Of a stretch of 29,152 nt of DNA, positions 4,971 through 25,394 are shown one piece after another. Location of the stretch: positions 1 through 29,152 of IMG/VR virus record IMGVR_UViG_3300044641_001690; one strand, given 5' to 3'. How positions within the stretch are numbered: the stretch's first letter is position 1; every line of letters begins with the position of its first letter. The DNA is from a virus. Below the pieces are notes generated by a model. That model ran no database searches. It was not told the origin of the DNA and saw only the letters and a list, made by a program, of their open reading frames with translations. A program made the translations under genes and the position numbers.

Positions 4971-7805
4971 ATGCCGAACACTCTTTCGCCGCTGCTCGAC
5001 CTGCCCTTTTTTGAGCTGTGCAATCAGGCGCCGGTGGCGACTTCTGCGCTCTCTGCCATGACAACGGTTGAGGATGGCGCCAGTCGGTTCATCTACTACA
5101 TCAGCGGTTCAAGTTTCTACCGCTACGACACGCAGGCTGACACCTGGCAGCAGCTTGCCAACCCGAACGTGGCACCTGTCACCCTCGTGGCGCTGCGCTA
5201 CACCGGACGTCGTGGCTTTCATGGTCGCGTCTTGGCCGCCACCTCCACCACCCTGACCATCCCCGGCGTGAGAGGGCCGGCGCTGGACGGCGAAACCGTG
5301 TCAATCGAGTTCGGTACCGGGTCCGGCCAGGAGCGGACGTTGACGTACGTTGGCGAGACGATCCACGATGCTGGCGTGCTCAGCAGCGCGAGCACGACCG
5401 TGCTCACTGATAGCACTAAGAAGTGGCGGGTCAACCAGTGGGCCGGCTACACCGTCGGCATCACGTTTGGCACCGACGCGACCCACTACCGGAAGGTCCT
5501 CTACAACGACGCGACGACCCTGACGGTTGCCGACGTCAACCTGCTGCCGCACGACCCCTGGAACAACCAGGCCTATGTCGCCGCTTCTCCCTACGCCCTT
5601 CCGGTCGCGACAGCTGGCGCCCAGTCGCACTACGTCATCAGTTCAGCTCAGTTCAACGTCACAGCCTGGGATACGATCCCCGACCGGACGTCGTTCTTCA
5701 CGACCCTCACGGGCGGGATCTACATGATCTCCTCGGCGGCTGCAGCGCCGTTCTTCACCCTTCAGTATTACGACATCCTGAACGACGTCTGGCAGACCAA
5801 AACATGCCCCCAGGGCTTGATTGGCGCGGCGCTTGGAACTGACATTGCCATCGAGCGAACGGGCAAGATCGGCGGCTCGGCGCTGACCGGCACGGCGACC
5901 GGTGGCACGTCCCGCACCTTGGTCGACAGCACCAAGGCGCTCGAGTTTGACCGCTACCGAAACTACCGCATCTACATCACGGGCGGCACGGGCCGAGGAC
6001 AGAGCCGCAGGATCGTGGCGCACAATGCGACAACTTTTTCCGTCACGCGCAACTGGGCGGTGATACCGGATGCCACGTCGACCTATGCCATTTGGGGGGA
6101 CTACGACCGGCTCTACATGACGGGCAACGGCGCGGCGGCCGTCTACGCATACAGTCCCGAAAACGACTATTGGATGCAGGGGCACTCGTTCGATGACGGT
6201 GTGACCTCCAGCATCACCGCCACCATGGCGGGCTGGACTCCGCTCGGGGTCTCCACCGGCGTGCGGATCGCGGCCGGCGTGCGTGCGATCAACCCGACGC
6301 CGACCGCGGCCGGATCGGCCTACAGCCTTGGCGACATCCTGACCCATTCGACCGGCGGCACCGGCTGCCAGATCCGCGTCACCGGCATCACTTCCACCGG
6401 CGCGGTGACGTCCCTGGAGCTGATCCACTCCGGCACGGCGACGGGCTTCACCCTCGGCACCGGCAAGACCGTGACGGGCGGCACCGGCACCGGCCTGACG
6501 TTTGAGATCACCAACGTCGGTGCAACCGCGTTGATCACCCTTGCTACGGCCCACTGGCTGGAGACTGGACAATCCGTCACATTTGCCGGCTGCGCGGAGG
6601 CGGCCTGGAACGCCGCTCATACAATCATCGGCTGCCCATCTACCACGACGTTCTGCGTGTCAACGCCGGCGACCGCCAACATGACGGCGACCTTGGCTCA
6701 GTCAGCCACGCTGATCGTGGACGTGTCCAAGAGCTGGATCCCCGGCGAGCACGTCGGCCGGGTGGTGCATGTGATGGTGGCGGGTCAGTCGCCTACATCG
6801 CAGATCCGCTGGATCACCGCCAACACCGAGACCACGCTTACCGTTGCCACTGTCACAGCAGCAGTCAACGGAACGTCGAAGTACGTCATCTACGACTCCA
6901 AGGCGTTTGGTATCGACAGCCAGCGCAAGGAAACGGGAATGCGCAGCGAGGGCTGGGCTACCGGCGGTTCCACAACCACGCTCGTCGACAGCAGCAAGAG
7001 CTGGATCCCCGGTCAGTGGACGGGCTATTTCTTCCGGGTGGAAGCCGGCACCGGCTACGGCTCCGGGCGCATTCAGATCACAGGCAACACGGCAGACACG
7101 CTGACCTTTGCAACGCAATCCTTCACGCCGAATACGACGACCAGGTACGACATCGCGGATGCTTGGGGGGTGGCGTCGGCGGGCAGCGCCACAACCATCG
7201 TAGAAACTGGAGCCAAGAACTGGTCGACCAACCAGTGGGGTGGCAAACGGGTCAGGATTCTCGGTGGAACTGGCGCAGGCCAGGAAGCCGTTGTTCAGAC
7301 GAACACGAGCAACACACTCACCACTGGTACGATCACCGCGCCAGATGCGACTTCGGTTTACGCCATCCTGGGCGCCCCGGCTCGTGGCGCGGGCACCCAG
7401 CTGATCTGGGCATGGGGCGCAACCGACGCGGCCAAGAAGGGCAGGTTCATGTTCTCCCCCCGCGGTGGCGGCACCAACCAGATCGACATCTACGACCTGA
7501 CCACCGCCCAGTGGGACTTTGGCCTTCCGATTCGGCCGCAAAACGACCTGTTCACCACTGGTTCGTCTTACGCCTACGACGGCGGCGACAACATCTACCT
7601 AGGCCGCTCCACTACGGGTACGGTGATGCGGATCTTCCAGCTCGACATCGACCGCCGCGAGATGACAGGCAAGGCCACCACCACCTTCCTGCAGGGCACG
7701 GCTCACATCGGTAACTTCATGGAGATTGCAGAGCTGAATGGCAACAAGTATCTCTACAACCTGCAGACCACCGGCACTCTGCTTGCGAGGGCGCTGCTCT
7801 TCTAA
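4971..7805 (+). CDS. Large modular virion protein with five internal repeats and kelch-like strands
   Basis: A 944-aa protein that occupies the place of lambda gpZ but is not gpZ-like. Four YD..T..W elements (residues 52-60 YDTQADTWQ, 267-275 YDILNDVWQ, 394-401 YSPENDYW, 841-849 YDLTTAQWD) resemble kelch blades of a beta-propeller. A ~70-residue unit occurs five times (about 136-205, 307-376, 573-642, 661-730, 734-801), with the pattern T-LVDS-K-W--NQW-GY-V-I-GGTG-GQ followed by N-TTLTV and TS-YAI. Residues 445-513 form a Gly/Thr-rich beta domain, and 517-572 a further beta module (TAHWLETGQSVTF). There is no enzyme motif and no signal peptide. The role is probably virion surface or host contact, which is inference. 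Confidence 0.65.
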   Translation: MPNTLSPLLDLPFFELCNQAPVATSALSAMTTVEDGASRFIYYISGSSFYRYDTQADTWQQLANPNVAPVTLVALRYTGRRGFHGRVLAATSTTLTIPGVRGPALDGETVSIEFGTGSGQERTLTYVGETIHDAGVLSSASTTVLTDSTKKWRVNQWAGYTVGITFGTDATHYRKVLYNDATTLTVADVNLLPHDPWNNQAYVAASPYALPVATAGAQSHYVISSAQFNVTAWDTIPDRTSFFTTLTGGIYMISSAAAAPFFTLQYYDILNDVWQTKTCPQGLIGAALGTDIAIERTGKIGGSALTGTATGGTSRTLVDSTKALEFDRYRNYRIYITGGTGRGQSRRIVAHNATTFSVTRNWAVIPDATSTYAIWGDYDRLYMTGNGAAAVYAYSPENDYWMQGHSFDDGVTSSITATMAGWTPLGVSTGVRIAAGVRAINPTPTAAGSAYSLGDILTHSTGGTGCQIRVTGITSTGAVTSLELIHSGTATGFTLGTGKTVTGGTGTGLTFEITNVGATALITLATAHWLETGQSVTFAGCAEAAWNAAHTIIGCPSTTTFCVSTPATANMTATLAQSATLIVDVSKSWIPGEHVGRVVHVMVAGQSPTSQIRWITANTETTLTVATVTAAVNGTSKYVIYDSKAFGIDSQRKETGMRSEGWATGGSTTTLVDSSKSWIPGQWTGYFFRVEAGTGYGSGRIQITGNTADTLTFATQSFTPNTTTRYDIADAWGVASAGSATTIVETGAKNWSTNQWGGKRVRILGGTGAGQEAVVQTNTSNTLTTGTITAPDATSVYAILGAPARGAGTQLIWAWGATDAAKKGRFMFSPRGGGTNQIDIYDLTTAQWDFGLPIRPQNDLFTTGSSYAYDGGDNIYLGRSTTGTVMRIFQLDIDRREMTGKATTTFLQGTAHIGNFMEIAELNGNKYLYNLQTTGTLLARALLF

Positions 7806-12309: not shown

Positions 12310-12645
12310 ATGGCGACCTTCACCTACACCCCGAGCTTCCAGGCAACCGAGAGCAGTAAGCCTCGCGTGCGCAAGTTTGCCGCTGGCGACGGCTACGAGC
12401 AGCGGGTGCGCTTTGGCCTGAACACCGATCCGAAGGAATGGACGCTGACCTTCGCCAATCGCACCGACACCGAACGGGAAAACATCCTCGCGTTTCTTGA
12501 GGCACGGGCCGGCGTGGAGGCGTTTGACTGGACCCCGCCCCGCGGCGCCGCTGGCAAGTTCGTTTGCGAGGAGTGGCAGACCACGCTCAGCAACTGCAAC
12601 AACAACCAAATCCAGGCCACCTTCCGCGAGGTGTTTGAGGTCTGA
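12310..12645 (+). CDS. Minor tail protein M-like
   Basis: A 111-aa protein matching the gpM family of tail-tip proteins: an N-terminal TFTYTPSFQATESSKPRV, a central WTLTFANRTDTERENILAFLEARAGVEAFDWTPPRG, then C-terminal strands ending FREVFEV. The segment FDWTPP is characteristic. It acts after the tape measure in assembly of the tail tip. Its TGA overlaps the ATG of the next gene. Confidence 0.85.
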   Translation: MATFTYTPSFQATESSKPRVRKFAAGDGYEQRVRFGLNTDPKEWTLTFANRTDTERENILAFLEARAGVEAFDWTPPRGAAGKFVCEEWQTTLSNCNNNQIQATFREVFEV

Positions 12646-14036
12646 TGGCTGTTCCGTTTTCTGAACTCCAGGCCGTAGCGCCCAGCGCAATCATCGAGCT
12701 GTTTGAACTGGAGCTGACCGCTGCGCTCCATGGCTTCAGTGAGATCTATCGCTTCCACGCTGGCACCAGCCTGAACAGCAACGGCGAGCTGGTTTGGGCC
12801 GGGAACAGCTACATGAGATTCCCGGTTGAGGCGGATGGCTTTGAATACAGCGGCCAAGGGCAGCTGCCGCGGCCAAAGTTGCGCGTGAGCAACATCCTCG
12901 GCACCATCACCGCGATCCTGGTCAACCTGCCGGACGGCTTGGAAGGCGCCAAGGTGACGCGCATCCGCACGTTGGCGCGTTATCTCGATGCGGTGAACTT
13001 CCCCGGCAGCGTGAACCCCTATGGCACGCCGGACCCGACCGCCGAGTTCCCGCGGGAGATCTTCTACGTCGATCGCAAGTCGGTTGAGACCCGCGAGCTG
13101 GTGGAGTTTGAGCTGGCAGCAGCGTTCGACCTCACCGGCGTGCGCGCACCCAAGCGGCAGTGCATCGCCAACATTTGCCAGTGGGTCTACCGCTCGGCTG
13201 AGTGCAGTTACACCGGCGGCGCCTACTACGACAGCAACGATCAGCCGGCAACATCCGCGGCGGCTGATGTCTGCGGCAAGCGGCTGAGCAGCTGTGAGGC
13301 GCGGTTTGAGCTTTACACCCGCACCGGCACGGTGACGGCTGGCAGCAACATCATGACGCTGGCAAGCACGCTCTCGATTCAACCAGGTGAACCGGTGCGC
13401 GGGTGGGGTTTACCTGCTGGCACTACGGTCGCAGCAGTGCCCAGCTCCACAACGCTCCAGCTCAGCGCCAATTCCAACGCCAGCTCAGTTGTCACTGTCA
13501 CCGGCACGCCATCCGCGACCGATGCGTTCATGACGGTCAGCAGCAGCACCGGCATCCAAGTGGGGCACTATGTCAGCGGCCCGCTGATGAACGGCGCAAC
13601 GGTCACCGGCATCTCCGGGACCACGATCTTTCTCAGCCAGCGGCCTTTCAGCATTGTGAAGGCTGGCACCTATCGCAACGTGATTGGCGACGATTACATC
13701 GACATCCCCAGCGGCACTGCAGGCATCAGCGTCGGGATGTACGCCTTCGGATCGTTTGCGGTTTACAAGCCGGTGGTGGTGGTTAACGCCAGCGACGTGC
13801 GGATCGACACCGTGACCACAATCAAAGAGCTGTACAAAGATTTGCAACAGTTCACCCTCGGCCTTGCCTTTGGCAAGAGCACCCTCGCGGGATCACCTGT
13901 CACGGCCTATTTCGTGCCGGCCAGCCCCGGCGCTGCCACCTATACCTTCAGCGCCAACCAGACCTACTCCTTCCGCGATCCGAACGCAGTGCTGCCGTTT
14001 GGCAGCTTCCCAGGCGTTGGAGCATACACAGCATGA
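12645..14036 (+). CDS. Minor tail protein L-like, with a large inserted domain
   Basis: A 463-aa protein, about twice the ~230 aa of lambda gpL. Residues 1-221 follow the family, with [16 protein letters not shown] and [11 protein letters not shown] cysteine cluster (Cys173, 178, 187, 210, 217) lies in a [16 protein letters not shown] context; lambda gpL uses such cysteines for an iron-sulphur cluster. The family's usual ending (LPFGGFPG) appears here only at 450-457 (LPFGSFPGV). Residues ~222-443 are inserted between: Ser/Thr/Gly-rich beta repeats such as [19 protein letters not shown] and [19 protein letters not shown], like phage fibre stalk repeats. It sits at the tail tip and its end overlaps K by 4 bp. 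Confidence 0.85.
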
Positions 14037-14737: not shown

Positions 14738-15308
14738 GATCCGGCTCTATGGAGCGCTCGCCAAATTCATCGGCAAGCGGGTGCTGAAGGCTGAGGTGGC
14801 AACCGCAGCGGAGGCCGTGCGGTTTCTCGTCGCCAACTTCCCCGAGGTTGAACGGCACATGGCGGACCGTTACTACAAGGTGATGGTGGGCGAGCAGCAC
14901 ATCATGCTCAACGAGCTGCACTATCCAGCCGGCCAGCAAGAGATCAAGATCATCCCGATGGTGGCAGGTTCCGGTCCGCTGATCGCCATCCCAATCGGCG
15001 CGTTGCTGATCGGCGCCGGTGCGGTGGGTGTTGGCGCTGGCATCACCATCGCGGGCGTGGCGCTGAGCACCATCCTGTTCGGCGTCGGCATCAGCTTGGT
15101 GCTGGGCGGCGTGGCGCAGCTGCTGACACCCACGCCAAAGGTCCTTACCGGTGGCGACACCGAGCAGGATCCGCGCAAGTCATACAGCTTCAGCGGGATT
15201 CAGAACACCAGCCGCCAAGGCACGCCGGTGCCGATTGTCTACGGTGAAACCATCGTTGGCTCGATCGTGATCTCTGCCGGCATCGACACCGTGCAGGTGA
15301 TGGCATGA
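14727..15308 (+). CDS. Tail assembly protein I-like
   Basis: A 193-aa protein. The N-terminal ~85 residues look like the ubiquitin-like fold of gpI ([32 protein letters not shown]). A long Gly/Ala/Ile-rich hydrophobic stretch follows (residues ~90-135), then [18 protein letters not shown] at the end, as in lambda gpI. GGAGG precedes the start inside the end of K. It works with K and J in building the tail tip and is not expected in the finished particle. The stop overlaps J (ATGA). Confidence 0.85.
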
Positions 15309-18300
15309 CCGACCTGATCCGCGGAGCTGGCGGCGGCGGCGGCGGCAAGGGCGGCGGCGGCGGACAGTACACGCCGACCACCGCCAAGGATGGGCTCGAC
15401 TCGACGCAATACGCGCAGCTGATCGACCTGCTCAGCGAAGGCGAGATCGAAGGCCTCAAGAATGGCCTGCAGTCGATCTACATCAACGACACCCCGCTCC
15501 AGAACCCGAACGGCAGCCTCAACTTTCAGGACGTCGCGGTTTACACCCGCAATGGCACCCAAGACCAGAGCATCATCCCGCTGGCGGCAGACATCGAGGA
15601 CGAGGTTCCGGTGGGTGTCACGGTGCTGCAAGCGCTGCCGGTGGTGCGCACCATCACCGACCCCAATGCCGATGCCGCGCGCATCACCATCACGGTGCCG
15701 CAGCTACAACGCTTCACCGACAAGGGCGACATCCTCGGCGCCAGCGTGCGGCTCCAGATCGCCGTGCAATACAACGGCGGTGGCTACACCAACGTGGTCG
15801 ATGACACGATTTCAGGCCGCACTGGTGACCCGTATCAGCGGGACTATGTGCTGACGTTCAGCGCACCGCCACCGGTCGACATCCGCGTGACGCGGGTGAC
15901 GCTCGACAGCACCGACCCAAAGCTGACCGATCTGTTCAACTGGACCAGCTACACCGAGATCGTGCGTGCGCGGCTGCGCTATCCCAACAGCGCACTGGTT
16001 GGGATGCGCGTCGATGCACGGCAGTTCTCCAGCATCCCCAGCCGCAGCTACCTGATCCGCGGCATCAAGGTTCGGATCCCATCCAATGCAACGGTGGATC
16101 AAGCCAATGGCCGCCTGGTCTATGCCGGCATCTGGAACGGCACTTTCGGCGCTGCGCAGTGGTGCTCGGATCCCGCTTGGGTGCTGTGGGACCTGTTGAC
16201 TTCGAAGCGCTACGGCTTTGGCGATCACATCCAGGCAGCGATGCTCGACAAGTGGGCGTTCTATGCAGCCAGCCGCTACGCCTCCGATTTGGTGCCCGAC
16301 GGCTTTGGTGGCCTTGAGCCGCGCTTCTCCTGCAACGTGAACATCCAGACGCAGGAGGACGCCTACAAGCTCATCAACGATCTTTCTTCAGTGTTCCGGG
16401 CGATGCCCTACTGGAGCACCGGTGCGCTCACCGTCAGCCAAGACGCGCCTGGAGATCCGGCCTACCTGTTCACGCTGGCGAACGTTTCCGAGGAAGGCTT
16501 CACCTATCAGTCCAGCAGCCAGAAGACTCGCCCGACCGTGGCGATCGTCAGCTATCTGGACCTGACTAGCCGCGAGATCGCCTACGAGGCCGTCGAGGAC
16601 CAGGCCGCTATTGCCAAATACGGCGTGGTCACCACGCAGATCTCGGCCTTTGCCTGCACGTCTCGCGGCCAAGCGGCGCGGATGGGCGAGTGGCTGCTCT
16701 ACGCCGAGCAATACGAGAGCGAGGTGATTAGCTTCACCACCTCGATCGACGCAGGCGTGATCGTCCGGCCAGGGCAGATCATTGAGGTGGCAGATCCACT
16801 GCGCGCTTCATCACGCCGCGGTGGGCGCATTGTCTCGGCAACGGTCAACGCCGTCACAGTGGACGATGCGACCGGGCTGGCGGCTGTGGCTACCGCCACC
16901 CTGTCGGTGGTGTTGCCAGACGGGACCGTTGAAAGCCGTGGCGTGGTCAGCATCGCCGGCAACGTGATCAACGTGGCCACGCCGTTCACCGCTGCGGCCA
17001 ATGCGAACAGCGTTTGGATCTTTCAGACCAGCGACATCCAAGCCTCCACCTGGCGGGTGTTGGCGGTGCAGGAGCAGGAAGGCTGCCAGTACCTCGTCAA
17101 CGCGCTGGCTTATGACTCCAGCAAGTACGCCTACATCGAGCGCGACCGTCCGCTGCAGCCGCGCGACACCACCAACCTCAACATCATCCCGGAGCCTCCC
17201 TCCAACCTGCAGGCCATCGAGGCGCTGTACGAAAGCAGCGGCCGTGCATTGGCCAAGCTGGTGGTCAGCTGGCAGCCCGTGGTCGGCGTCACCCAGTACC
17301 GCATCCGTTGGCGCCAGCAGAACGGCAACTGGAACGTCGAGATTGTCGAGCGGCCGGACTATGACATCTTCGACACCGGCGAGGCGCTCTACGAGATCGA
17401 GGTCTACAGCCTGAACGCAGCGCTACGGCAGTCGACTGAGCCGGCCACGTTGTCGATCAGCGCCTTCGGCAAGACCGCTCCACCGGCCACAGTTGCCGGG
17501 CTGTCGCTGATCCCGATCGACGAAGCCAGCGCCATCTTGAGCTGGACCCGTAGCGAGGAGCTGGACGTGCTGCTCGGCGGCAAGGTGTTGATCCGTCACA
17601 ACGTCGCCATGGTCGGCGCGCTGTGGGAGGAGAGCCAGGAGATCGTGGCTGCTGCTGCCGGCAGCCAAACCCAGAAGCAGGTGCCGCTGCTGGAAGGTAC
17701 CTATCTGGTGAAGTTCGAGGACGACGGCGGTCGCCGCAGCTTGAGCCCTGCCACGATCGTGGTAGACCTGCCAACCCCGCAGCCACGGCTGCTGGTGCAG
17801 ACCTACGCCGAGGATCTGGAAAGCCCGCCATTCAACGGCAACTACACCGACATGTTCTATGTCACCGGCGTGGCCGAGCTGGATGGCGCCAGCGGCATCT
17901 TGCTCAGTGGCGGAGAGGCAGTGGACTCAATGGCGCTCGATGACAACTGGGACGCGCTGGCCTCAATCGACAGCGTGGGAGGCGTGCTGAGCACCGGCGA
18001 GTATGAGTTCGGGTCCACCTACAGCTTCCCCGGCGTGTTCGATTGCAACATGCGCCGGCGACTGATCTCCTTCCCGTACATACCCGGCGACTTCTGGGAC
18101 GACAAGTTCGACCTGATCGACACCTGGGACCTGATCGACGGCACCGGCGGCGACCGGGTAAACGCGCTCACCTATGTGCGCACCACCCAGGACGACCCGA
18201 GCGGCACACCGGTCTGGGGCGAGTGGCGGGAGTTCAGCAACGCGATCGTCCGCGGCCGTGGCTTCCAGTTCAAGACCATCGCCACCAGCACCGACCCGAC

Positions 18301-18589
18301 GCAGAACATCGTGATCCAAGAGCTGGGCGCCGAGTTGGAGCTGCAGCAACGGGTTGAACAGTCAGCAGTCCTCACCAGCGGTGCAGGAACTTACACCGCG
18401 ACCTTCGCAAGTCCTTTCTTTGAGATCCCCAGCGTCGGCGTCACGGCGTACAACATGGACACGGGTGACTACTTCACGATCGCAGCGGTGACACGGACCG
18501 GTTTCCAAGTAACATTCAGGAACGCAGCCGCCACAGCCGTGAGCCGCCAGTTCACCTACACCGCGATCGGCTTCGGGAGGGAGATCTAA
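15305..18589 (+). CDS. Central tail-tip / host-specificity protein J-like
   Basis: A 1094-aa protein, near the 1132 aa of lambda J. It begins with a poly-Gly segment (about residues 7-21, encoded by GGC repeats at 15329-15363), then the conserved DGLDSTQYAQLIDLLSEGEIEGL, VYTRNGTQDQ and a phage-tip beta region up to about 600. Two FN3-like domains lie at ~628-735 and ~735-822 (PSNLQAIEALYE, VVSWQPVVGVTQYRIRWRQ, PATVAGLSL). The C-terminal ~270 residues should carry host contact. The tip protein forms a trimer at the end of the tail and recognises the receptor. Confidence 0.92.
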   Translation: MTDLIRGAGGGGGGKGGGGGQYTPTTAKDGLDSTQYAQLIDLLSEGEIEGLKNGLQSIYINDTPLQNPNGSLNFQDVAVYTRNGTQDQSIIPLAADIEDEVPVGVTVLQALPVVRTITDPNADAARITITVPQLQRFTDKGDILGASVRLQIAVQYNGGGYTNVVDDTISGRTGDPYQRDYVLTFSAPPPVDIRVTRVTLDSTDPKLTDLFNWTSYTEIVRARLRYPNSALVGMRVDARQFSSIPSRSYLIRGIKVRIPSNATVDQANGRLVYAGIWNGTFGAAQWCSDPAWVLWDLLTSKRYGFGDHIQAAMLDKWAFYAASRYASDLVPDGFGGLEPRFSCNVNIQTQEDAYKLINDLSSVFRAMPYWSTGALTVSQDAPGDPAYLFTLANVSEEGFTYQSSSQKTRPTVAIVSYLDLTSREIAYEAVEDQAAIAKYGVVTTQISAFACTSRGQAARMGEWLLYAEQYESEVISFTTSIDAGVIVRPGQIIEVADPLRASSRRGGRIVSATVNAVTVDDATGLAAVATATLSVVLPDGTVESRGVVSIAGNVINVATPFTAAANANSVWIFQTSDIQASTWRVLAVQEQEGCQYLVNALAYDSSKYAYIERDRPLQPRDTTNLNIIPEPPSNLQAIEALYESSGRALAKLVVSWQPVVGVTQYRIRWRQQNGNWNVEIVERPDYDIFDTGEALYEIEVYSLNAALRQSTEPATLSISAFGKTAPPATVAGLSLIPIDEASAILSWTRSEELDVLLGGKVLIRHNVAMVGALWEESQEIVAAAAGSQTQKQVPLLEGTYLVKFEDDGGRRSLSPATIVVDLPTPQPRLLVQTYAEDLESPPFNGNYTDMFYVTGVAELDGASGILLSGGEAVDSMALDDNWDALASIDSVGGVLSTGEYEFGSTYSFPGVFDCNMRRRLISFPYIPGDFWDDKFDLIDTWDLIDGTGGDRVNALTYVRTTQDDPSGTPVWGEWREFSNAIVRGRGFQFKTIATSTDPTQNIVIQELGAELELQQRVEQSAVLTSGAGTYTATFASPFFEIPSVGVTAYNMDTGDYFTIAAVTRTGFQVTFRNAAATAVSRQFTYTAIGFGREI

Positions 18590-18592
18590 GGC

Positions 18593-19192
18593 ATGGCACA
18601 ACACGACTATGTGATCGCCAACCAGTCAGGCCTCGCCTTCCGCGCTGACCTGAACAACGGGCTGGCGGCGATCGTCAGCCAGAACAGCGGCGCCACCGCC
18701 CCCAGCACCACCTACGCCTATCAGTGGTGGGCAGATACGACGACCGGCCTGCTGAAGCTGCGCAATGCAGCGAACAGCGCATGGATCACGATCGGCACGC
18801 TGGCCAGCACCAACCTCGGCCTGGCGCCACTGGCATCGCCCAGCTTCACCGGCACTGCCAGCTTCGCTGGTGACGTGCTGCTGAGCGGCACCGGCTACCT
18901 CGACCTGCCGGTGGGCACTACGGCGCAGCGCCCTGGATCGCCCACCTCGGGCATGATCCGGTTCAACAGCACGCTCAGCCAGTTCGAGGGCTACAACGGC
19001 ACCGCATGGTCCAGCGTCGGCGGTGGCGCAACAGGTGGCGGCGCCGATACGGTGTTCCTTGAGAACAGCAACACGGTGACCACCAACTACACGCTCACCA
19101 CCAACAAGAATGCGGTGAGTGCCGGCCCCGTTACAGTCAACGCAGGCGTCACCGTTACCGTGCCCAGCGGCGCCAGCTGGGTGATCGTCTAA
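18593..19192 (+). CDS. Short tail fibre / tip accessory protein
   Basis: A 199-aa protein beginning AQHDYVIANQSGLAFRADLNNGLAAI, with a WWADTTTGLLKLRNAANSAWITIG element and VGTTAQRPGSPTSGMIRFNS followed by FEGYNGTAW. These motifs recur in small fibre proteins downstream of J in phages. The C-terminus is a run of short Thr/Val strands ending SGASWVIV. It is probably a trimeric fibre or a connector between J and the fibres that follow. GGGAGGGAG lies before the start within the end of J. Confidence 0.75.
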   Translation: MAQHDYVIANQSGLAFRADLNNGLAAIVSQNSGATAPSTTYAYQWWADTTTGLLKLRNAANSAWITIGTLASTNLGLAPLASPSFTGTASFAGDVLLSGTGYLDLPVGTTAQRPGSPTSGMIRFNSTLSQFEGYNGTAWSSVGGGATGGGADTVFLENSNTVTTNYTLTTNKNAVSAGPVTVNAGVTVTVPSGASWVIV

Positions 19193-19204
19193 CCCGAAAG
19201 GATC

Positions 19205-19819
19205 ATGCCAATCACGATCAACGGTTCAACAGGCATCAGCGGGGTAGACGGTTCAGCCGGCACCCCTGCCGTGATTGGCAGCGATGCAGACACCGGGCTG
19301 GTGTTCAGCGCTGGCCGCGTGCAGGCATCACTGAATGGCATTGCTGCCAACGTGGGGCTGGTGCAGGGCACCGCGCAGAACAGCACCAGCGGCACGGTGG
19401 TGGACTTTACCGGCGTCCCCAGCTGGGCGCGGCGGATCACCGTCATGCTCAACGGTGTGAGCACTAGCGGCACCTCATCTCTTCTTTTCCAGCTCGGCAC
19501 CAGTGGCGGCGTTCAAACAACCGGCTACACCACGGCCAACACGCGCATCGGTGCGTCCGCTGTCATCGCAGCCTCTTCTACGGCAGGCTGGGCAGTGAAC
19601 AGCGCAACCGCTGCTTCGACCAGCAGCGGCCATGCGGTGTTCACATTTGTGCAGACCGGAGTCTGGGTGGGCAGCTGCATGATCGGCAGTTCAGAGCCCG
19701 CCGTGTCATGGATCACCGGAAGAAAAGACCTTTCTGGCACATTGGATCGCGTCCGCGTAACCACTGTGAACGGCACCGACACCTTCGACGCCGGCAGCAT
19801 CAACATCCTTTACGAGTGA
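19205..19819 (+). CDS. Tail fibre paralogue 1
   Basis: A 204-aa protein, the first of three tandem related genes. The N-terminus (PITINGSTGISGVDGSAGTP) is a typical fibre adaptor. The shared part starts near residue 57 (AQNSTSGTVVDFTGVPSW, then RITVMLNGVSTSGT, SGGVQTTGY) and ends in LDRVRVTTVNGTDTFDAG followed by SINILYE. The residues between GY and SGTLDR differ strongly from those of its sisters. It probably forms host-binding fibres on the tail tip; receptor unknown. GAAAGGATC precedes the start. Confidence 0.75.
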   Translation: MPITINGSTGISGVDGSAGTPAVIGSDADTGLVFSAGRVQASLNGIAANVGLVQGTAQNSTSGTVVDFTGVPSWARRITVMLNGVSTSGTSSLLFQLGTSGGVQTTGYTTANTRIGASAVIAASSTAGWAVNSATAASTSSGHAVFTFVQTGVWVGSCMIGSSEPAVSWITGRKDLSGTLDRVRVTTVNGTDTFDAGSINILYE

Positions 19820-19823
19820 CGCC

Positions 19824-20450
19824 ATGACCTTACGCCTCAACGGCTCCTCATCGGGCTACACCGAGATCGACGCTCCAGCAGTTGCTGGATCGAACACGCT
19901 GGTGCTGCCAACTGGCAACGGCTCAGCGGGCAACATCCTCGGCACCGATGGCGCCGGAAACCTGAGCTGGGTGAATGGCCGGATGGTGCTTACCACTGCG
20001 CAGAACACTACCAGCGGCACCAACATCGACTTCACCGGAATCCCGAGCTGGGTGAAGAAAGTCACGGTGATGTTCAACGGGGTGAGTACGAATGGCACAA
20101 CCCCTGTTCAGATTCAGATCGGCAGCAGCGGCGGAGTCGAGTCAACAGGGTATAACTGCAACGTGTACTCAGTTACAGGTACAAATACGTGCGCCTTGGG
20201 GGCTTATGCGTCTGGATTTGTCGTGCTAGGTGCATCAGTTACAGACGCACGTGTTGGTCATTTAATGCTTACTAATTTGAGCGGCAATACGTGGGTGGGA
20301 AGTGCAAGCATTTTTTCAAGTGCGGCAGCCGTGGGCGGAGGACAAGGTGCAAAAATACTCTCCGGCACTCTCGACCGCATCCGCCTCACCACCGTAAACG
20401 GCACCGACACCTTTGACGCGGGGTCGATCAACATTCTGTACGAGGGCTGA
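19824..20450 (+). CDS. Tail fibre paralogue 2
   Basis: A 208-aa protein. Its N-terminus (TLRLNGSSSGYTEIDAPAVAG, then NTLVLPTGNGS, ILGTDGAGNLSW) is unrelated to those of its neighbours. From residue ~59 it aligns with them: AQNTTSGTNIDFTGIPSW, KKVTVMFNGVSTNGT, SGGVESTGY, and at the end LDRIRLTTVNGTDTFDAG with SINILYEG. The central variable part (nt ~20150-20330) is visibly richer in A and T than the flanks, suggesting acquisition by recombination. It starts 5 nt after paralogue 1. Confidence 0.75.
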   Translation: MTLRLNGSSSGYTEIDAPAVAGSNTLVLPTGNGSAGNILGTDGAGNLSWVNGRMVLTTAQNTTSGTNIDFTGIPSWVKKVTVMFNGVSTNGTTPVQIQIGSSGGVESTGYNCNVYSVTGTNTCALGAYASGFVVLGASVTDARVGHLMLTNLSGNTWVGSASIFSSAAAVGGGQGAKILSGTLDRIRLTTVNGTDTFDAGSINILYEG

Positions 20451-20452
20451 TC

Positions 20453-21025
20453 ATGAGCACCATCGCGGCAACTAACCTCAAGAACGCCAGCTCGGGCAGC
20501 AACAACATTGTGCTGAACACCGATGGCACGACTACCATCGCGGCACCCAGCAACATCATCAAGTCTGGCACCGCCGTCGCCTCAACCAGCGGCACGGCGA
20601 TCGACTTCACCAGTATCCCTAGTTGGGTTAAGCGGGTGACGGTGATGTTTGACGGGGTGAGTGTAAGTGGAACGGCAAATATTTTGATTCAATTGGGTGA
20701 TAGCGGAGGCGTTGAGACAACTGGCTACAGCAGTAGCAGCACTTTTATTTCAACCACGGTTGGAGGCGTTGGCAGTACCTCTGGAATCATCCTTTACGCA
20801 GCCGTTGCTGCTAATCTTCTGACCGGACCTGTTGTATTTAACAACGTTAGTGGCAATTTGTGGATTGCAGGAGGCACGTTGAACTACGACAATACGCCTG
20901 GGGCTAATGCCCTTACCGCTGGGAGTAAAACCCTCTCCGCAGCGCTTGATCGCCTCCGAATAACAACAAGCAACGGCACCGACACTTTTGACGCTGGAAC
21001 CATCAACATCCTGTACGAGGGCTGA
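20453..21025 (+). CDS. Tail fibre paralogue 3
   Basis: A 190-aa protein with a third kind of N-terminus (STIAATNLKNASSGSNNIVL, NTDGTTTI). The shared domain follows: STSGTAIDFTSIPSW, KRVTVMFDGVSVSGT, SGGVETTGY, and LDRLRITTSNGTDTFDAG with TINILYEG at the end. As in paralogue 2, the centre (nt ~20690-20900) uses many codons ending in A or T. Two nucleotides separate it from paralogue 2. Likely function is as for the other two fibres. Confidence 0.75.
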   Translation: MSTIAATNLKNASSGSNNIVLNTDGTTTIAAPSNIIKSGTAVASTSGTAIDFTSIPSWVKRVTVMFDGVSVSGTANILIQLGDSGGVETTGYSSSSTFISTTVGGVGSTSGIILYAAVAANLLTGPVVFNNVSGNLWIAGGTLNYDNTPGANALTAGSKTLSAALDRLRITTSNGTDTFDAGTINILYEG

Positions 21026-21028
21026 TCC

Positions 21029-21262
21029 ATGGAACGCATTGAAGTCAACGTCATCACGGGTGAGCAGCAGATCATCCCGCTGACGGCTGAGGAGATCGAG
21101 GAGATCATGTCTCGGCCGCAGCCGGAGCCGCCTCCGGTGCTCACCACCGAGCAAAAGCTGGAAGCTGCTGGCCTGACCGTTGCCGAGCTGCGCGAGCTGT
21201 TCGGGCTTCCCGAGCCAGCGCCTGCACCTGAGCCTGAGCCTGAGCCCGCCCCCGAGAGCTGA
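21029..21262 (+). CDS. Small acidic protein after the fibres (77 aa)
   Basis: The N-terminus ERIEVNVITGEQQIIPLTAEEIEEI is a pattern common in small proteins that follow phage fibre genes. Then comes EQKLEAAGLTVAELRELFGL, a likely short helical pair, and a Pro-Glu tail (PEPAPAPEPEPEPAPES). It could be a fibre chaperone or fibre-associated protein; function unknown. Its stop overlaps the next start (TGATG). Confidence 0.65.
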   Translation: MERIEVNVITGEQQIIPLTAEEIEEIMSRPQPEPPPVLTTEQKLEAAGLTVAELRELFGLPEPAPAPEPEPEPAPES

Positions 21263-21399
21263 TGGCCGTCAAGTCCAAAACCGGCACCGCTCGGATTGAA
21301 CACCAGCCTGGTCCGCCCAAGGCCACACGCCAAGGCTTCGGGCAACACAGCCGCCCACGCCGCCGTGGCAAGAAGCCCCTCCGAGGGCAAGGCCGGTAG
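21262..21399 (+). CDS. Small basic protein (45 aa)
   Basis: The frame starts in a TGATG overlap and stops with TAG at 21397-21399. The sequence is strongly basic: MAVKSKTGTARIEHQPGPP, then KATRQGFGQHSRPRRRGKK and LRGQGR. I recall very similar small proteins in cyanophage genomes between fibre and lysis genes, which is one reason for suggesting a cyanobacterial host. It probably binds nucleic acid or a virion surface; this is inference. The frame is too short to judge by length alone, but both ends are coupled to neighbours. Confidence 0.6.
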   Translation: MAVKSKTGTARIEHQPGPPKATRQGFGQHSRPRRRGKKPLRGQGR

Positions 21400-21572
21400 T
21401 GGACGCCCAAACCCGCGAAAACTGGCGACGCATCCGCGATACTCTGGAAGCTGCGGGAAAGACTGATAATCATTACTATCGCCGCGCTCTTGCCATCCTC
21501 GCCGGGATGCCCGATCCCTTCGATCGTTACGATGGGATCAGGACCGGATCAGCCGATGGCGGACGAACCTAA
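21399..21572 (+). CDS. Small helical protein (57 aa), GTG start
   Basis: GTG at 21399 overlaps the preceding TAG (TAGTG), and the stop is TAA at 21570-21572. The protein reads MDAQTRENWRRIRDTLEAAG, then KTDNHYYRRALAILAGMPDPF, two short amphipathic helices joined by KTDNHYY. Function unknown. It overlaps the next gene by 17 bp, again implying coupled translation. Confidence 0.5.
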   Translation: MDAQTRENWRRIRDTLEAAGKTDNHYYRRALAILAGMPDPFDRYDGIRTGSADGGRT

Positions 21573-21789
21573 AACAGTCGGCGGCGTCTTCGTTGCGTCC
21601 CTCCCCGCCGCAATCGCCGCCGGTGTGTTCGCCATCGGTGCCCTGCTCGTCAACATGCAGATCCAGTCCGCACGCATCGAGGCCACGCTCACGCAGGTGG
21701 CCGCCTCAGTGGATGAATTGAAGACCGACGCCAAGGCGCAGCTGGCAGATCTGGACAAGCGCGTGCGCCAGCTTGAGATCCGCAAGTAA
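21556..21789 (+). CDS. Small membrane protein with coiled coil (lysis-region)
   Basis: From ATG 21556 the protein has 77 aa: a polar start (MADEPKTVGG), one membrane segment (VFVASLPAAIAAGVFAIGAL and on to residue ~33), then a coiled coil (SARIEATLTQVAASVDELK, LADLDKRVRQLEIRK). This single-span plus coiled-coil plan is seen in holin-accessory and spanin-like proteins. A longer frame from 21490 is open, but its first residues do not look coding and overlap the 57-aa gene. It precedes another small membrane protein and the endolysin. Confidence 0.65.
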   Translation: MADEPKTVGGVFVASLPAAIAAGVFAIGALLVNMQIQSARIEATLTQVAASVDELKTDAKAQLADLDKRVRQLEIRK

Positions 21790-21972: not shown

Positions 21973-22121
21973 CCGCGATTGAAGACTGGCACGCAACACA
22001 GCCGCCGGCCACGCCGCCGCCGGTGATCATTGAGCACCCGATCGACAACCAACAGCAGACCGGCGACAGCCGGCTCTTAGGTGGACCCATCAGCATCCAT
22101 GCGCCATGGCGTCGTGACTAA
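21945..22121 (+). CDS. Open frame after the holin-like gene, no normal start
   Basis: The frame encodes ALTVAPRLDPAIEDWHATQ, then a Pro-rich part (PPATPPPVIIEHPIDNQQQ) and TGDSRLLGGPISIHAPWRRD, ending TAA at 22119-22121. The composition looks coding, but there is no ATG or TTG in the open stretch (open from 21867), and the only GTG (22023) would leave 32 aa. It could be reached by a -1 shift from the holin-like gene, giving ~105 aa in total. It could also use a CTG start or be a relic. It fills a gap before the endolysin and overlaps that gene's likely GTG start by 8 bp. Confidence 0.4.
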   Translation, partial: ALTVAPRLDPAIEDWHATQPPATPPPVIIEHPIDNQQQTGDSRLLGGPISIHAPWRRD

Positions 22122-23199
22122 CTCAGCACCCATCACGCTGGAGCAGCTGTTCCGGTTTTATCGCGGCCTGCCCCATCAAGCTGCTGCGATCGAAACGCTG
22201 GAGCAGGACCTGGCGGTGAACGGCTACGCGATCGCCATGCGCCGCGATCGCGCATGGTTTCAGATCTGGAGCCAAGACGGCAAGCAGGCTGATCTGGCCG
22301 CGGCGTTGAAGCTGATCAAAGAGTTTGAAGGCTGCCACCTAGAGGCCTACCGCGACCCGCTGCACGGCTGGGACGTGGCAACGATCGGCTACGGCACCAC
22401 CCGCTACCCCGACGGCCGCAAGGTCAAGCAAGGCGACAAGATCAACGCCATCGAGGCGGACATGCTGCTCCGCCAAGAAGTGGACCGCATCGCTGAAAAG
22501 CTGCGCACCTCGATCCCGGCATGGGGCGAGATAGCCGATCACCAGAAGTGCGCGCTGATCTCGTTTGCCTACAACCTCGGCAGCGACTTCTACGGCGCGC
22601 GGGGATTTGAAACCATCAGCCGGGAGTTGCGCGAGAAGGACTGGGCTGCAGTGCCCGCAGCCTTGCTCCTGTACCGCAACCCCGGCACCAACGTCGAGGC
22701 TGGGCTGAAGCGGCGCCGCATTGCCGAGGGCACGCTATGGACTGGCGCCCAGCCGCCCCCGCCTCCTCCTCGCCCTGCCAAGGTAAAGCCCGCCGATCCG
22801 TTCAGCACCAAGCTGTCGCCGCATTTCACGCTGGGCGAGTTTGCCTTGGGTGAGCCGGCTCGGCGCTTCGTGGCGCAGCATCAGGTGGACACCGCCACCG
22901 AGCTGGCGGCATTTCTGGAGCGCGTGCGCACAGCCTTCGGCGGCAAGCGCGTCACGATCACCTCGGGCTATCGGCCGGCAGCCATCAACCGCGCGGTGGG
23001 TGGCGCCAGCAACAGCGAGCACCTCTATGACGCGCCTGGTGTGGGTGCGGTGGACTTCTACGTTGACGGCGTGGACATCAAGAAGGTGCAGGACTGGGTG
23101 GACCGTGAGTGGCCGTACAGCGTCGGCTACGGCGCACCCAAGGGCTTCGTGCATCTGGGCATCCGCAAGGGCAGGCCTAGAGTCCGCTGGGATTACTGA
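22114..23199 (+). CDS. Two-domain endolysin: GH24 lysozyme plus M15 peptidase
   Basis: The start chosen is GTG 22114 (MTNSAPITLEQLFRFY...), giving 361 aa; the frame is open from GTG 22081. Residues ~4-60 form a small N-terminal domain (ITLEQLFRFYRGLPHQAAAI). A T4-lysozyme-type domain follows with Glu72 (EFEG), Asp81 (AYRD) and Thr90 (ATIGYG), which cleave glycan strands. After a Pro linker (PPPPPPRPAKVKP, ~214-226) comes an M15-like zinc peptidase with SGYRP, His303 (SEH), Asp314 (AVDF) and His347 (VHLG), which would cut peptide cross-links. Most phages of this type encode one activity only. No signal peptide, consistent with holin-dependent release. Confidence 0.88.
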   Translation: MTNSAPITLEQLFRFYRGLPHQAAAIETLEQDLAVNGYAIAMRRDRAWFQIWSQDGKQADLAAALKLIKEFEGCHLEAYRDPLHGWDVATIGYGTTRYPDGRKVKQGDKINAIEADMLLRQEVDRIAEKLRTSIPAWGEIADHQKCALISFAYNLGSDFYGARGFETISRELREKDWAAVPAALLLYRNPGTNVEAGLKRRRIAEGTLWTGAQPPPPPPRPAKVKPADPFSTKLSPHFTLGEFALGEPARRFVAQHQVDTATELAAFLERVRTAFGGKRVTITSGYRPAAINRAVGGASNSEHLYDAPGVGAVDFYVDGVDIKKVQDWVDREWPYSVGYGAPKGFVHLGIRKGRPRVRWDY

Positions 23200-23205
23200 G
23201 CCTGA

Positions 23206-23727
23206 ATGATCATTCACGATGTCGAGCTTGAGCGCCTTTGCCGCGAGGAGGCGCTCATTGTTGGGTGGGAGCCCGACCTGATCAACCCAGCCAGCATCGA
23301 CGTGCGGCTCGGGGAGCGCTTGATGATTGAAGATCCAAGGCACGCCAACCTTGAAATCCTTGGCATTAGCAAGCGCACCAAAGAAGACCCGTACTGGCTG
23401 CAGCCGGGCGCCTTTGTACTGGCTGAGACCATTGAGATCTTCAACATGCCGGAGAACGTCGCCGGCCAGTTCGTGCTGAAGTCCAGCCGCGCGCGTGAAG
23501 GCCTGAGCCATGCCTTGGCTGGCTATCTGGACCCGAGCTGGTGCGGCAGCCGCCTCACGCTGGAGCTGCACAACATCCGCAAGCACCACGCGGTCCCGCT
23601 GTGGCCAGGCCTGCGCATCGGTCAGGTGGTCTACCACCGGATGGCGGGAACTCCGCAGCGCAGCTACGCCGAGGTGGGGCACTACAACCACCAGCCCCGC
23701 GTCATGCCCAGCTGGGAGGCGGCGTAA
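23206..23727 (+). CDS. dcd: dCTP deaminase / dUTPase-family enzyme
   Basis: A 173-aa protein of the trimeric Dcd/Dut fold. It has INPASIDVRLG (27-37), the substrate motif SSRAREGL (93-100, compare SSLARLG in Dcd) and LTLELHN with Glu120, matching the catalytic Glu of Dcd. The product would be dUTP from dCTP, or dUMP if bifunctional, feeding thymidylate supply for phage DNA. It starts 7 nt after the endolysin, far from any replication gene in the window. Whether it deaminates or only hydrolyses dUTP cannot be decided by eye. Confidence 0.85.
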   Translation: MIIHDVELERLCREEALIVGWEPDLINPASIDVRLGERLMIEDPRHANLEILGISKRTKEDPYWLQPGAFVLAETIEIFNMPENVAGQFVLKSSRAREGLSHALAGYLDPSWCGSRLTLELHNIRKHHAVPLWPGLRIGQVVYHRMAGTPQRSYAEVGHYNHQPRVMPSWEAA

Positions 23728-23728
23728 G

Positions 23729-24241
23729 ATGACAGGGCTGCGGCGCGTCAACGCCCAGCCCCTGACCACTGCTCTACCAGTGATGACTGAATCCTACGCC
23801 GCTGAACGGTGGGCACCCATTGTCGGCTTTGAAGGCCTTTACGAGGTCTCAAATCAAGGACGGGTGAGAAGCCTCGATCGAGTCGTGCAGCTGACGGGAC
23901 ACCCCACACTCAAGGCGCGCACCATGAAAGGGCGCATTCTGTTTCAGAAGACGAACCGCCCCGCAGCGGGCGCCTACGCAAGAAAACAGGTGGCGTTGTG
24001 GAAAAACAACACAGAGCACACGATGAACGTGGCGCGGCTGGTTGCTGAGGCATTCCTGCCAAACCCCGACGCCATGCCGTTGGTGCTTCACCTGGATGAC
24101 GATGCCACCAACAACCGCATCGAAAATCTGCAGTGGGGAGACCGCGCCGAGAACGTGCGGCAAGCTGTGGAGCGAAACCGTTTTCCAAGCGGCTCGCGGC
24201 ATCACAGCTACACCCACGGCAGATACGTCCGCCGGGGCTAG
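23729..24241 (+). CDS. HNH homing endonuclease with NUMOD4 motif
   Basis: A 170-aa protein from ATG 23729, one nt after the dcd stop and with GGGAGG about 10 nt upstream. ATG 23783 is an alternative that would begin just before the conserved part. Residues 28-52 are NUMOD4 (WAPIVGFEGLYEVSNQGRVRSL), a DNA-binding element of phage homing nucleases. Residues ~100-142 are an HNH_3-type core (VARLVAEAFLPNP, LVLHLDDDATNNRIENLQW). It probably acts as a selfish element inserted between dcd and the integrase. It converges on the integrase, and the two stops share the palindrome GCTAGC. Confidence 0.85.
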   Translation: MTGLRRVNAQPLTTALPVMTESYAAERWAPIVGFEGLYEVSNQGRVRSLDRVVQLTGHPTLKARTMKGRILFQKTNRPAAGAYARKQVALWKNNTEHTMNVARLVAEAFLPNPDAMPLVLHLDDDATNNRIENLQWGDRAENVRQAVERNRFPSGSRHHSYTHGRYVRRG

Positions 24242-25332
24242 CCGTTGATCGCATCCCCGATCAACGCGGCGGCCGCCTTGGCTGCATCATCCATCAGGTA
24301 GGCGTATCGGGCGGTGGTCTGCGGCGACGCATGACCGAGCAGCTGCCCGATCTGGCTGAGCGAGACACCAGCCGACAGACCTACGGAGGCGTATGAACGG
24401 CGCAGATCGTGAACGGTGAGGCCGGTGATGCTGGCGCGCTTCAGCAGCTCCAGCCATAGCTTCTGGTATCCGACAAGGTGGCCGCTGCCGTCGCCGGCGA
24501 TGATCCATGCCGTGTTCGACTTGGAGCGCAGCTCCTGCAGGATCTGAACCGCTGCCGGGTGAAGCCGCACCACGCGCTCCTCGCCGGTTTTCTCGCCGGT
24601 CTTATGGCGCTCGACCGGTATCACCAGAAGGCTGCCGGGCTCATCGAACCACTCCCAGCGGCCGCGGCAGATCTCCCCGACGCGGCAGCCGGTGAGCAGC
24701 AGCAGGCGGATCAGTTGCGTGAACCGCCAGCGCAGGGGCGTGGTCGCCATGTCGCTGAGCGCAGCCAGCAGCCGCTGCCGCTCGGCTGGTGATAGGTGTC
24801 GCTTGCGGACCCGTTCGGTCAGCTTGGCAACCTTGCCGCATGGATTGGACCCTTCCGGTCGCAGCTGCCACAGCTCGGCCTTGTTGAAGGCAGCGCGGAC
24901 CGACTGCAGGACGCGGTTCCGCATGATCGGCTTGATGCTGTCCAGAAGATCAAGGATGTCGCGGCGCTGCACGTCCCCCACGCGCCGGCGGCCAATGGAG
25001 GGCAGCACATGGAGCTTCCACATGCGGCGGTAGGCGTCGGCTGTGGAGGCGCGGAGCTTGCTGTAGTGGCGGGCATCCATCAAGGCGTGCAGATCGGCCA
25101 CAGATGGCTCCGCGGCTGCCCGCTGAGGTGCTCTGCCTTGGACCGCCTCCGAGAGGAGCTTGAGGGCTTCCCTGCGCGCGGCGACGCGGTTGAGCACATC
25201 GGCACGGCCAATCTTCTGGGTGCGCTGCCGGCCGCCTTGCTCCCTGAAGCGCAGATACCAGGTCCGCACTCCAGACGGCAGGCTGAGGATCCCAAGGCCA
25301 GGCACGGAACTGTCGGCTTCCCACTGCTTCAT
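24238..25332 (-). CDS. int: Tyrosine integrase
   Basis: A 364-aa site-specific recombinase. From the chosen start the catalytic residues are Arg217 (TGCRVGEI), Lys244, His308 and Arg311 (HDLRRSY), His334 (LLGH) and nucleophile Tyr343 (ARYAYL); all are present. Residues ~1-75 form an arm-binding domain of DUF4102-like character (WYLRFREQGGRQRTQKIGRA), followed by a core-binding SAM-like domain (~75-165). I chose ATG 25332, with GGAGG 5 nt upstream, over ATG 25344, which has none. It faces away from the attP-like site, whose repeats lie in its promoter region, suggesting that integrase may repress itself. Confidence 0.93.
   Translation of the reverse strand: MKQWEADSSVPGLGILSLPSGVRTWYLRFREQGGRQRTQKIGRADVLNRVAARREALKLLSEAVQGRAPQRAAAEPSVADLHALMDARHYSKLRASTADAYRRMWKLHVLPSIGRRRVGDVQRRDILDLLDSIKPIMRNRVLQSVRAAFNKAELWQLRPEGSNPCGKVAKLTERVRKRHLSPAERQRLLAALSDMATTPLRWRFTQLIRLLLLTGCRVGEICRGRWEWFDEPGSLLVIPVERHKTGEKTGEERVVRLHPAAVQILQELRSKSNTAWIIAGDGSGHLVGYQKLWLELLKRASITGLTVHDLRRSYASVGLSAGVSLSQIGQLLGHASPQTTARYAYLMDDAAKAAAALIGDAING
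24244..24265. other. Perfect inverted repeat at the HNH/integrase convergence
   Basis: GTTGATCG (24244-24251) and CGATCAAC (24258-24265) form an 8-bp stem with a 6-nt loop, 2 nt after the HNH stop and inside the last codons of the integrase. No T tract follows on either strand, so it is not a standard terminator. It could still end or stabilise one or both converging transcripts. Confidence 0.5.
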
Positions 25333-25343
25333 CGCTTCCTCCA

Positions 25344-25394
25344 TTCGCGCACTATTCGCGCAGATTTGCGCGAACGGCCGTGAGATTGCGCGAA
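25344..25394. repeat. Left arm-type repeat cluster of attP
   Basis: Four copies of the octamer TTCGCGCA: two direct (25344-25351, 25355-25362; 11 bp apart) and two inverted (25367-25374, 25387-25394; 20 bp apart, each extended by CGGC and GTGA). Spacings of one and two helical turns suit integrase arm-type binding. The cluster also covers the DNA just upstream of the integrase start. Confidence 0.8.

Follow-up and report, generated by a model that had tools for sequence, protein, structure and literature searches.

The window analysed here, the complete 29,152 bases of a virus record, shows a lambda-like gene order (portal, fused capsid/protease, tail tube, tape measure, L, K/I-like, J, fibre genes, endolysin, integrase), and the virus is a lambda-like siphovirus with an integrase. 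Three fibre genes lie in its tail module, immediately 3' of J and the tail-associated gene G4 and 5' of the lysis genes, with gaps of 4 and 2 nt between their open reading frames (Table 1). The original prediction of three tandem paralogues at 19205–21025 with differing N-termini, a common inner domain and a divergent centre was confirmed at exactly these coordinates, the second and third proteins sharing 51% and 47% identity with the first. The match of the endolysin to Synechococcus phage S-CBS3 and the best match of J among isolates (cyanophage MED4-117, 35%) point to a picocyanobacterial host, probably Synechococcus or Cyanobium, while a near-DNA search of isolate phages returned no DNA-level match to the window.

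Table 1 Features of the fibre locus and its flanking anchors, in positions of the window
Feature	Position	Strand	Evidence or remark
J, central tail fibre/tip protein, 1094 aa; upstream anchor of the cassette	15305..18589	+	PHROG 31 (E 4e-243); Pfam FNIII-A_GpJ
G4, tail-associated, 199 aa; precedes the cassette, flank conserved in relatives	18593..19192	+	PHROG matches including 'tail protein'; anchors 25 loci
Slot-1 fibre gene, 204 aa, adaptor A and H head	19205..19819	+	ORF
Adaptor A, slot 1 (MPITINGSTGISGVDGSAGTPA...)	19205..19357	+	Class recurs in relatives; replaced in L104
Head N-block, copy 1 (TSGTxIDFTxxPSW..)	19358..19507	+	DNA repeat, protein alignment
Divergent centre, copy 1	19508..19714	+	
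C-block, copy 1 (NGTDTFDAGSINILYE)	19715..19819	+	DNA repeat, protein alignment
Slot-2 fibre gene, 208 aa, adaptor B and H head; head all-beta in AlphaFold2 model	19824..20450	+	
Adaptor B, slot 2 (MTLRLNGSSSGYTEIDAPAVAGSNTL...)	19824..19982	+	Other phages carry a 96% identical adaptor
Head N-block, copy 2	19983..20132	+	
Divergent centre, copy 2 (GC3 0.41)	20133..20345	+	
C-block, copy 2	20346..20450	+	
Slot-3 fibre gene, 190 aa, adaptor C and H head	20453..21025	+	
Adaptor C, slot 3 (MSTIAATNLKNASSGSNNIVL...)	20453..20557	+	Class recurs in relatives
Head N-block, copy 3	20558..20707	+	
Divergent centre, copy 3 (GC3 0.46)	20708..20920	+	
C-block, copy 3	20921..21025	+	
Small ORF, 77 aa (MERIEVNVITGEQ...), candidate H-head partner	21029..21262	+	TGE kind by eye
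Endolysin; downstream anchor and host clue	22081..23199	+	67% identity to Synechococcus phage S-CBS3

Several further features of the window were recorded during annotation. The L-like minor tail protein (12645–14036) matches Phage_tail_L up to residue 222, and its remainder forms an extra region in which short repeats are visible by eye. At the C-terminus of J (18395–18568) a weak H-type lectin match was found (E 0.0024, under the curated cut-off), a possible additional receptor-binding site. The structural module also contains a 944-aa ORF (4971–7805) with Kelch-motif matches only and no PHROG match, and at 23206–24241 an ORF with NUMOD4 and HNH motifs is overlapped by a dCTP deaminase-like gene.

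At the DNA level, the three fibre genes are linked by two three-copy repeat families of 143 nt (69–71% identical to the reference copy) and 101 nt (72–77%), spaced 575–628 nt apart. Identity between the copies amounts to 26–43% in the adaptor, 59–70% in the N-block, 42–43% in the centre and 71–72% in the C-block. The expectation of a nearly identical C-block thus holds for the protein, in which 21–24 of 26 residues are identical, but not for the DNA; the same codon is used at just 12–13 of the identical residues, and the longest exact match between any of the copies spans 14–17 nt. As silent sites have diverged among the three copies, recent exchange of these copies with each other is excluded, and gene conversion was likewise rejected as the means of keeping the three C-blocks alike because some half of the residues in common are encoded by different codons. 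The C-block closes with the codons TAC GAG GGC TGA, which place the sequence GAGG just 5' of the next start codon (20432–20455, 21007–21031), so that the end of the block may double as a ribosome site for the following gene. A near ORF follows 74 of 109 EG endings and 71 of 127 E endings, a slight excess, and since GAGG is the automatic outcome of Glu-Gly codons, a Shine-Dalgarno sequence encoded in the C-block is at most a tentative reading.

Centres 2 and 3 are indeed richer in A and T than their flanks, as had been predicted, with a GC content of ~48–53% against 57–65% in the surroundings, and the proposed check of codon usage gave the same picture, their GC3 values (Table 1) comparing with 0.62–0.78 in their blocks. 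Among 241 head genes, the centre GC3 lies below that of both blocks in 80–89% of the genes and ~0.2 below that of the C-block, in each case in every genome-GC class, while it follows the genome GC (r = 0.75) with a scatter no larger than in the blocks. A low centre GC3 is therefore a trait of the whole family and by itself no indicator of import, and the interpretation of AT-rich centres as a sign of recent import was ruled out generally. Possible causes include a relaxed choice of codons, donors rich in A and T, and recombination that raises the GC content of the blocks.

In the C-terminal part common to the three genes, here termed the H head, two conserved blocks form a scaffold that frames a divergent centre. 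Over 96 sequences the N-block has a mean column entropy of 0.85 bits and the C-block one of 0.39 bits, against 2.54 bits for the centre, and this pattern across relatives argues that the architecture did not arise by chance. In the AlphaFold2 model of copy 2, computed from the 96 aligned sequences with three rows of the input alignment left out, the head is predicted to be all-beta with local confidence mostly >87, and the strands of its centre are as variable as the loops. H heads were found in at least 559–592 confirmed viral stretches per scan of viral contigs, rarely in the bacterial genome set (5 loci with the patterns used), and among isolates in Rhizobium, Pseudomonas and Aminobacter phages; the homologue of Pseudomonas phage AH02 (MZ501271.1, 15723–16220) is annotated as 'major tropism determinant protein'. 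The family is thus widespread, yet without a Pfam or PDB entry. A Pfam scan gave no match for the H head, an NCBIfam match was discarded as spurious, and the PHROG matches are weak though significant for copy 1 (PHROG 18673 'tail fiber protein', E 8e-5), very weak for copy 3 (E 0.011) and absent for copy 2. Searches of the PDB yielded no real match to the H-head sequence and, for the H-head model, no chain at E 0.001 or below. Many predicted phage proteins of the tail-fibre, collagen-repeat and Stf-repeat kinds were matched by the model, and the occurrence of collagen triple-helix proteins among these fold relatives is suggestive of a trimeric assembly.

The N-terminal adaptors follow a regular order among related phages. 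Slot 1 is occupied by adaptor A or A2, which have similar first residues (MPITINGS...), slot 2 by B and slot 3 by C. In the 77 contig groups in which strict adaptor models recognised two or more adaptor genes, A (or A2) preceded B in 57/57, B preceded C in 45/45 and A preceded C in 37/37 cases, which makes 139 of 139 ordered pairs and 0 reversals. The notion of exchanged N-termini consequently applies to slot 1, where A alternates with A2, but not as free exchange, and it is mainly the heads that move. While this order may represent a docking code, its regularity could also stem from common descent of one gene order.

Movement of the heads was traced in the 241 head genes, which derive from 167 contig groups formed by 900-nt overlaps. 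Fourteen pairs from different contig groups have centres at least 80% identical; they stem from a sample selected by similarity to the window, which gives no exchange rate. The suggested inspection of related phage loci was borne out here, as in 9 of the 14 pairs these near-identical centres sit on unrelated adaptors of just 35–48% identity. In 8 of these 9 pairs the two genes agree better in the centre than in either block, contrary to the family-wide pattern of far more conserved blocks, and this reversal is the trace expected of a crossover inside the blocks. The shared tract starts in the N-block in 8 of the 9 pairs and ends in, or within ~10 nt of, the C-block in 7, the two outlying ends lying 174 nt before and 116 nt beyond the end of the gene.

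Individual loci show the same pattern. The nearest relative of the window, L104 (on the same contig as L004), was compared under an earlier grouping that merges contigs sharing an exchanged head, as were the G4-anchored locus counts given below. Its identity to the window is ~0.8–1.0 up to the end of J and over most of G4, then falls to 0.25–0.48 in the slot-1 adaptor and rises again to 0.85–0.98 in the head including its centre; in slot 2 the B adaptor is retained (~0.75) with an unrelated head, and the match resumes at 84% from 21244. In the chimeric gene L117B, the first 204 nt correspond to the slot-B gene of L121 and nt 216–577 to its slot-C gene, with a return to the slot-B type by ~nt 623; the two switches thus fall within the N- and C-blocks. 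Slots B and C carry heads x/y in L121, x/z in L119 and y/z in L117, with centre identities that round to 100%. The swaps are documented in metagenomic contigs, and chimeric assembly could mimic a few of them. A tree of 79 heads, in which 10 of 76 branches are starred as supported, places near-identical heads in different slots, and heads of one locus are not sisters. The slot labels change 25 times on this tree (minimum 2, shuffled mean 30.6), a mild clustering indicating that exchange is frequent and mixing incomplete. Taken together, these natural recombinants in related phages (L104, the nine swap pairs and L117B) support the original prediction that the conserved blocks could act as exchange points. 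In six cases (L128, L082, L118 and others), five of which involve H heads, an HNH-looking, homing-endonuclease-like ORF directly follows a fibre gene, and such ORFs could help to drive head exchange.

The same comparisons bear on an alternative in which an ancient tandem duplication was followed by ordinary divergence, with blocks that hold the fold and centres that drift or are positively selected in place, without any swapping. This would agree with the family-wide conservation of the blocks as protein and the diverged silent sites in the window, as well as with the finding that no two heads of one locus have a common centre (maximum identity 54% in 89 within-locus pairs). However, it accounts neither for the near-identical centres on unrelated adaptors in nine contig pairs, with breakpoints in the blocks, nor for the separation of heads of one locus in the tree, and we judge it unlikely as a full explanation. 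Purifying selection on the blocks is real, alongside exchange. The 89 pairs permit no claim that selection keeps the heads of a locus different, since centres are shared between loci too rarely for any such case to be expected within a locus.

Less probable still is active switching within one genome, by which the repeats of a single phage would recombine during growth in a phase-variable or site-specific manner. The three tandem copies would suit such a mechanism, and in-genome transfer could explain why head y is found in slot B of L117 and in slot C of L121. Against this stand the short exact matches between the window copies (14–17 nt, at 59–72% block identity), the absence of a common centre from every within-locus pair, and the outcome of a search for the hallmarks of a Gin/Cin-type invertible cassette, which found 0 inverted repeat pairs of ≥20 nt in 18600–21600 and, among the scanned proteins, no dedicated serine recombinase beside the cassette; the sole recombinase among the scanned window proteins is a Phage_integrase-family protein on the other strand (24238–25344). 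Variation of the centres by a diversity-generating retroelement, suggested by the AH02 annotation, which is the name of a known target of such elements, is very improbable. The differences between centres consist of replacements and indels, while swapped centres reach 100% identity, and no reverse transcriptase was found among the scanned proteins, which include part of the small ORFs of this possibly fragmentary record.

The slots of related loci are also filled by other heads. In the G4-anchored relatives, H heads vary from none to three, with other heads on the same adaptors, which answers the suggested search for copy-number variation in the affirmative; as copy number and head content both vary, relatives do not carry the same three centres everywhere. 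The alternatives comprise an R type (CRAWVNFNGTGTVAIR...AIFR), one of Peptidase_S74 kind and further types with clear matches to PHROG tail-fibre families. No profile similarity was detected between R and H heads (hhalign probability 2%), and the R head follows a like plan of a conserved first part, a variable centre and a short fixed end. Its model resembles the receptor-binding domain of the cyanophage Pam1 tailspike (PDB 7eea; Foldseek probability 1.00, E 2.9e-3) and, weakly, pyocin-fibre and H-type lectin domains. The predicted likeness to the Pam1 domain supports a putative role of the slot occupants as receptor binders. Certain head types are accompanied by small ORFs of their own: TGE-type ORFs stand behind H heads in 11 cases versus 0 behind others, RIIY..GGV proteins behind R heads in 53 versus 0, and DY..YL.W proteins behind D heads in 12 versus 0. 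Most H heads have no TGE-type ORF directly behind them, and in L247 a similar small ORF follows the last fibre gene. It is a reasonable guess that the product of the small ORF is a head-specific assembly helper.

Architecture, adaptor order, natural swaps and breakpoint positions were observed directly, and we consider it likely that the locus is an ordered three-slot fibre cassette, in which heads or their centres are swapped between adaptors and phages by recombination, often inside the blocks. Each gene would encode a short fibre with a beta-sheet head at its C-terminus, its place in the row being marked by the N-terminal adaptor. The adaptors presumably dock to the tail, the centres would bind the receptors, and the three fibres may be present together on one virion, where mixed tips or a wider host range might result. 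The parts moving between adaptors and phages would then be head centres or entire heads from unrelated families, exchanged probably through ordinary homologous or annealing recombination with crossovers often inside the conserved blocks, and docking to the tail would be retained while the host-facing tips change. An extension of this reading is possible and is offered with some hesitation: the adaptors A/A2, B and C could constitute a positional code docking successively at the tip, so that as many as three different fibres would be arranged in order on each virion, with the head blocks as both structural frame and standard recombination sockets, and such combinatorial receptor recognition could be common to a large group of aquatic phages.

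The cassette offers a visible set of rules, namely three ordered adaptor positions, a common head stock, sharp junctions and, for some head types, probably a small protein to match. This allows the question to be asked how one phage combines several receptor binders, and allows fibre content to be read from metagenomic data on picocyanobacterial phages, a group about whose receptors little is known.

Klebsiella phage KP32 and coliphage G7C each bear several fibres whose N-terminal anchors differ, and these are large tailspikes with enzyme domains. The cassette is similar in its multiple predicted fibres with differing N-termini, whereas a Pfam scan detected no enzyme or known anchor domain in the fibres of the window. 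For T-even phages, Tetart in 1998 and Trojet in 2011 are said to have proposed the conserved motifs of gp38 as crossover points. Hypervariable regions of gp38 are known to lie between such motifs (PMC12892980), and both systems have variable segments, with an established or putative part in host recognition, framed by conserved motifs. In contrast, gp38 is a single tip protein that carries polyglycine-II motifs, while the cassette places a head on a short adaptor in up to three ordered copies per phage; no glycine-rich motifs flank its centres, the blocks TSGTxIDFTxIPSWVKRxTVM and NGTDTFDAGSINILYE being modelled largely as beta strands. Tail-fibre domains are also shuffled between related phages, with a constant anchor and an exchanged C-terminal domain (Smug 2023, PMC10684548). 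These mosaic receptor-binding proteins share with the cassette the conserved anchor and the changed head, but in the cassette the exchanged part is often internal, its C-terminal side is closed by a further fixed block, and the same heads circulate among three positional adaptors. The Pam1 tailspike domain is the best fold match of the R head, while the window's own heads are of the H type. Modular tail fibres and domain shuffling are already known, mostly in the form of a single anchor whose one tip changes; as far as the literature was searched, what is new is internal exchange between two fixed blocks, combined with three ordered adaptor slots and a common head stock.
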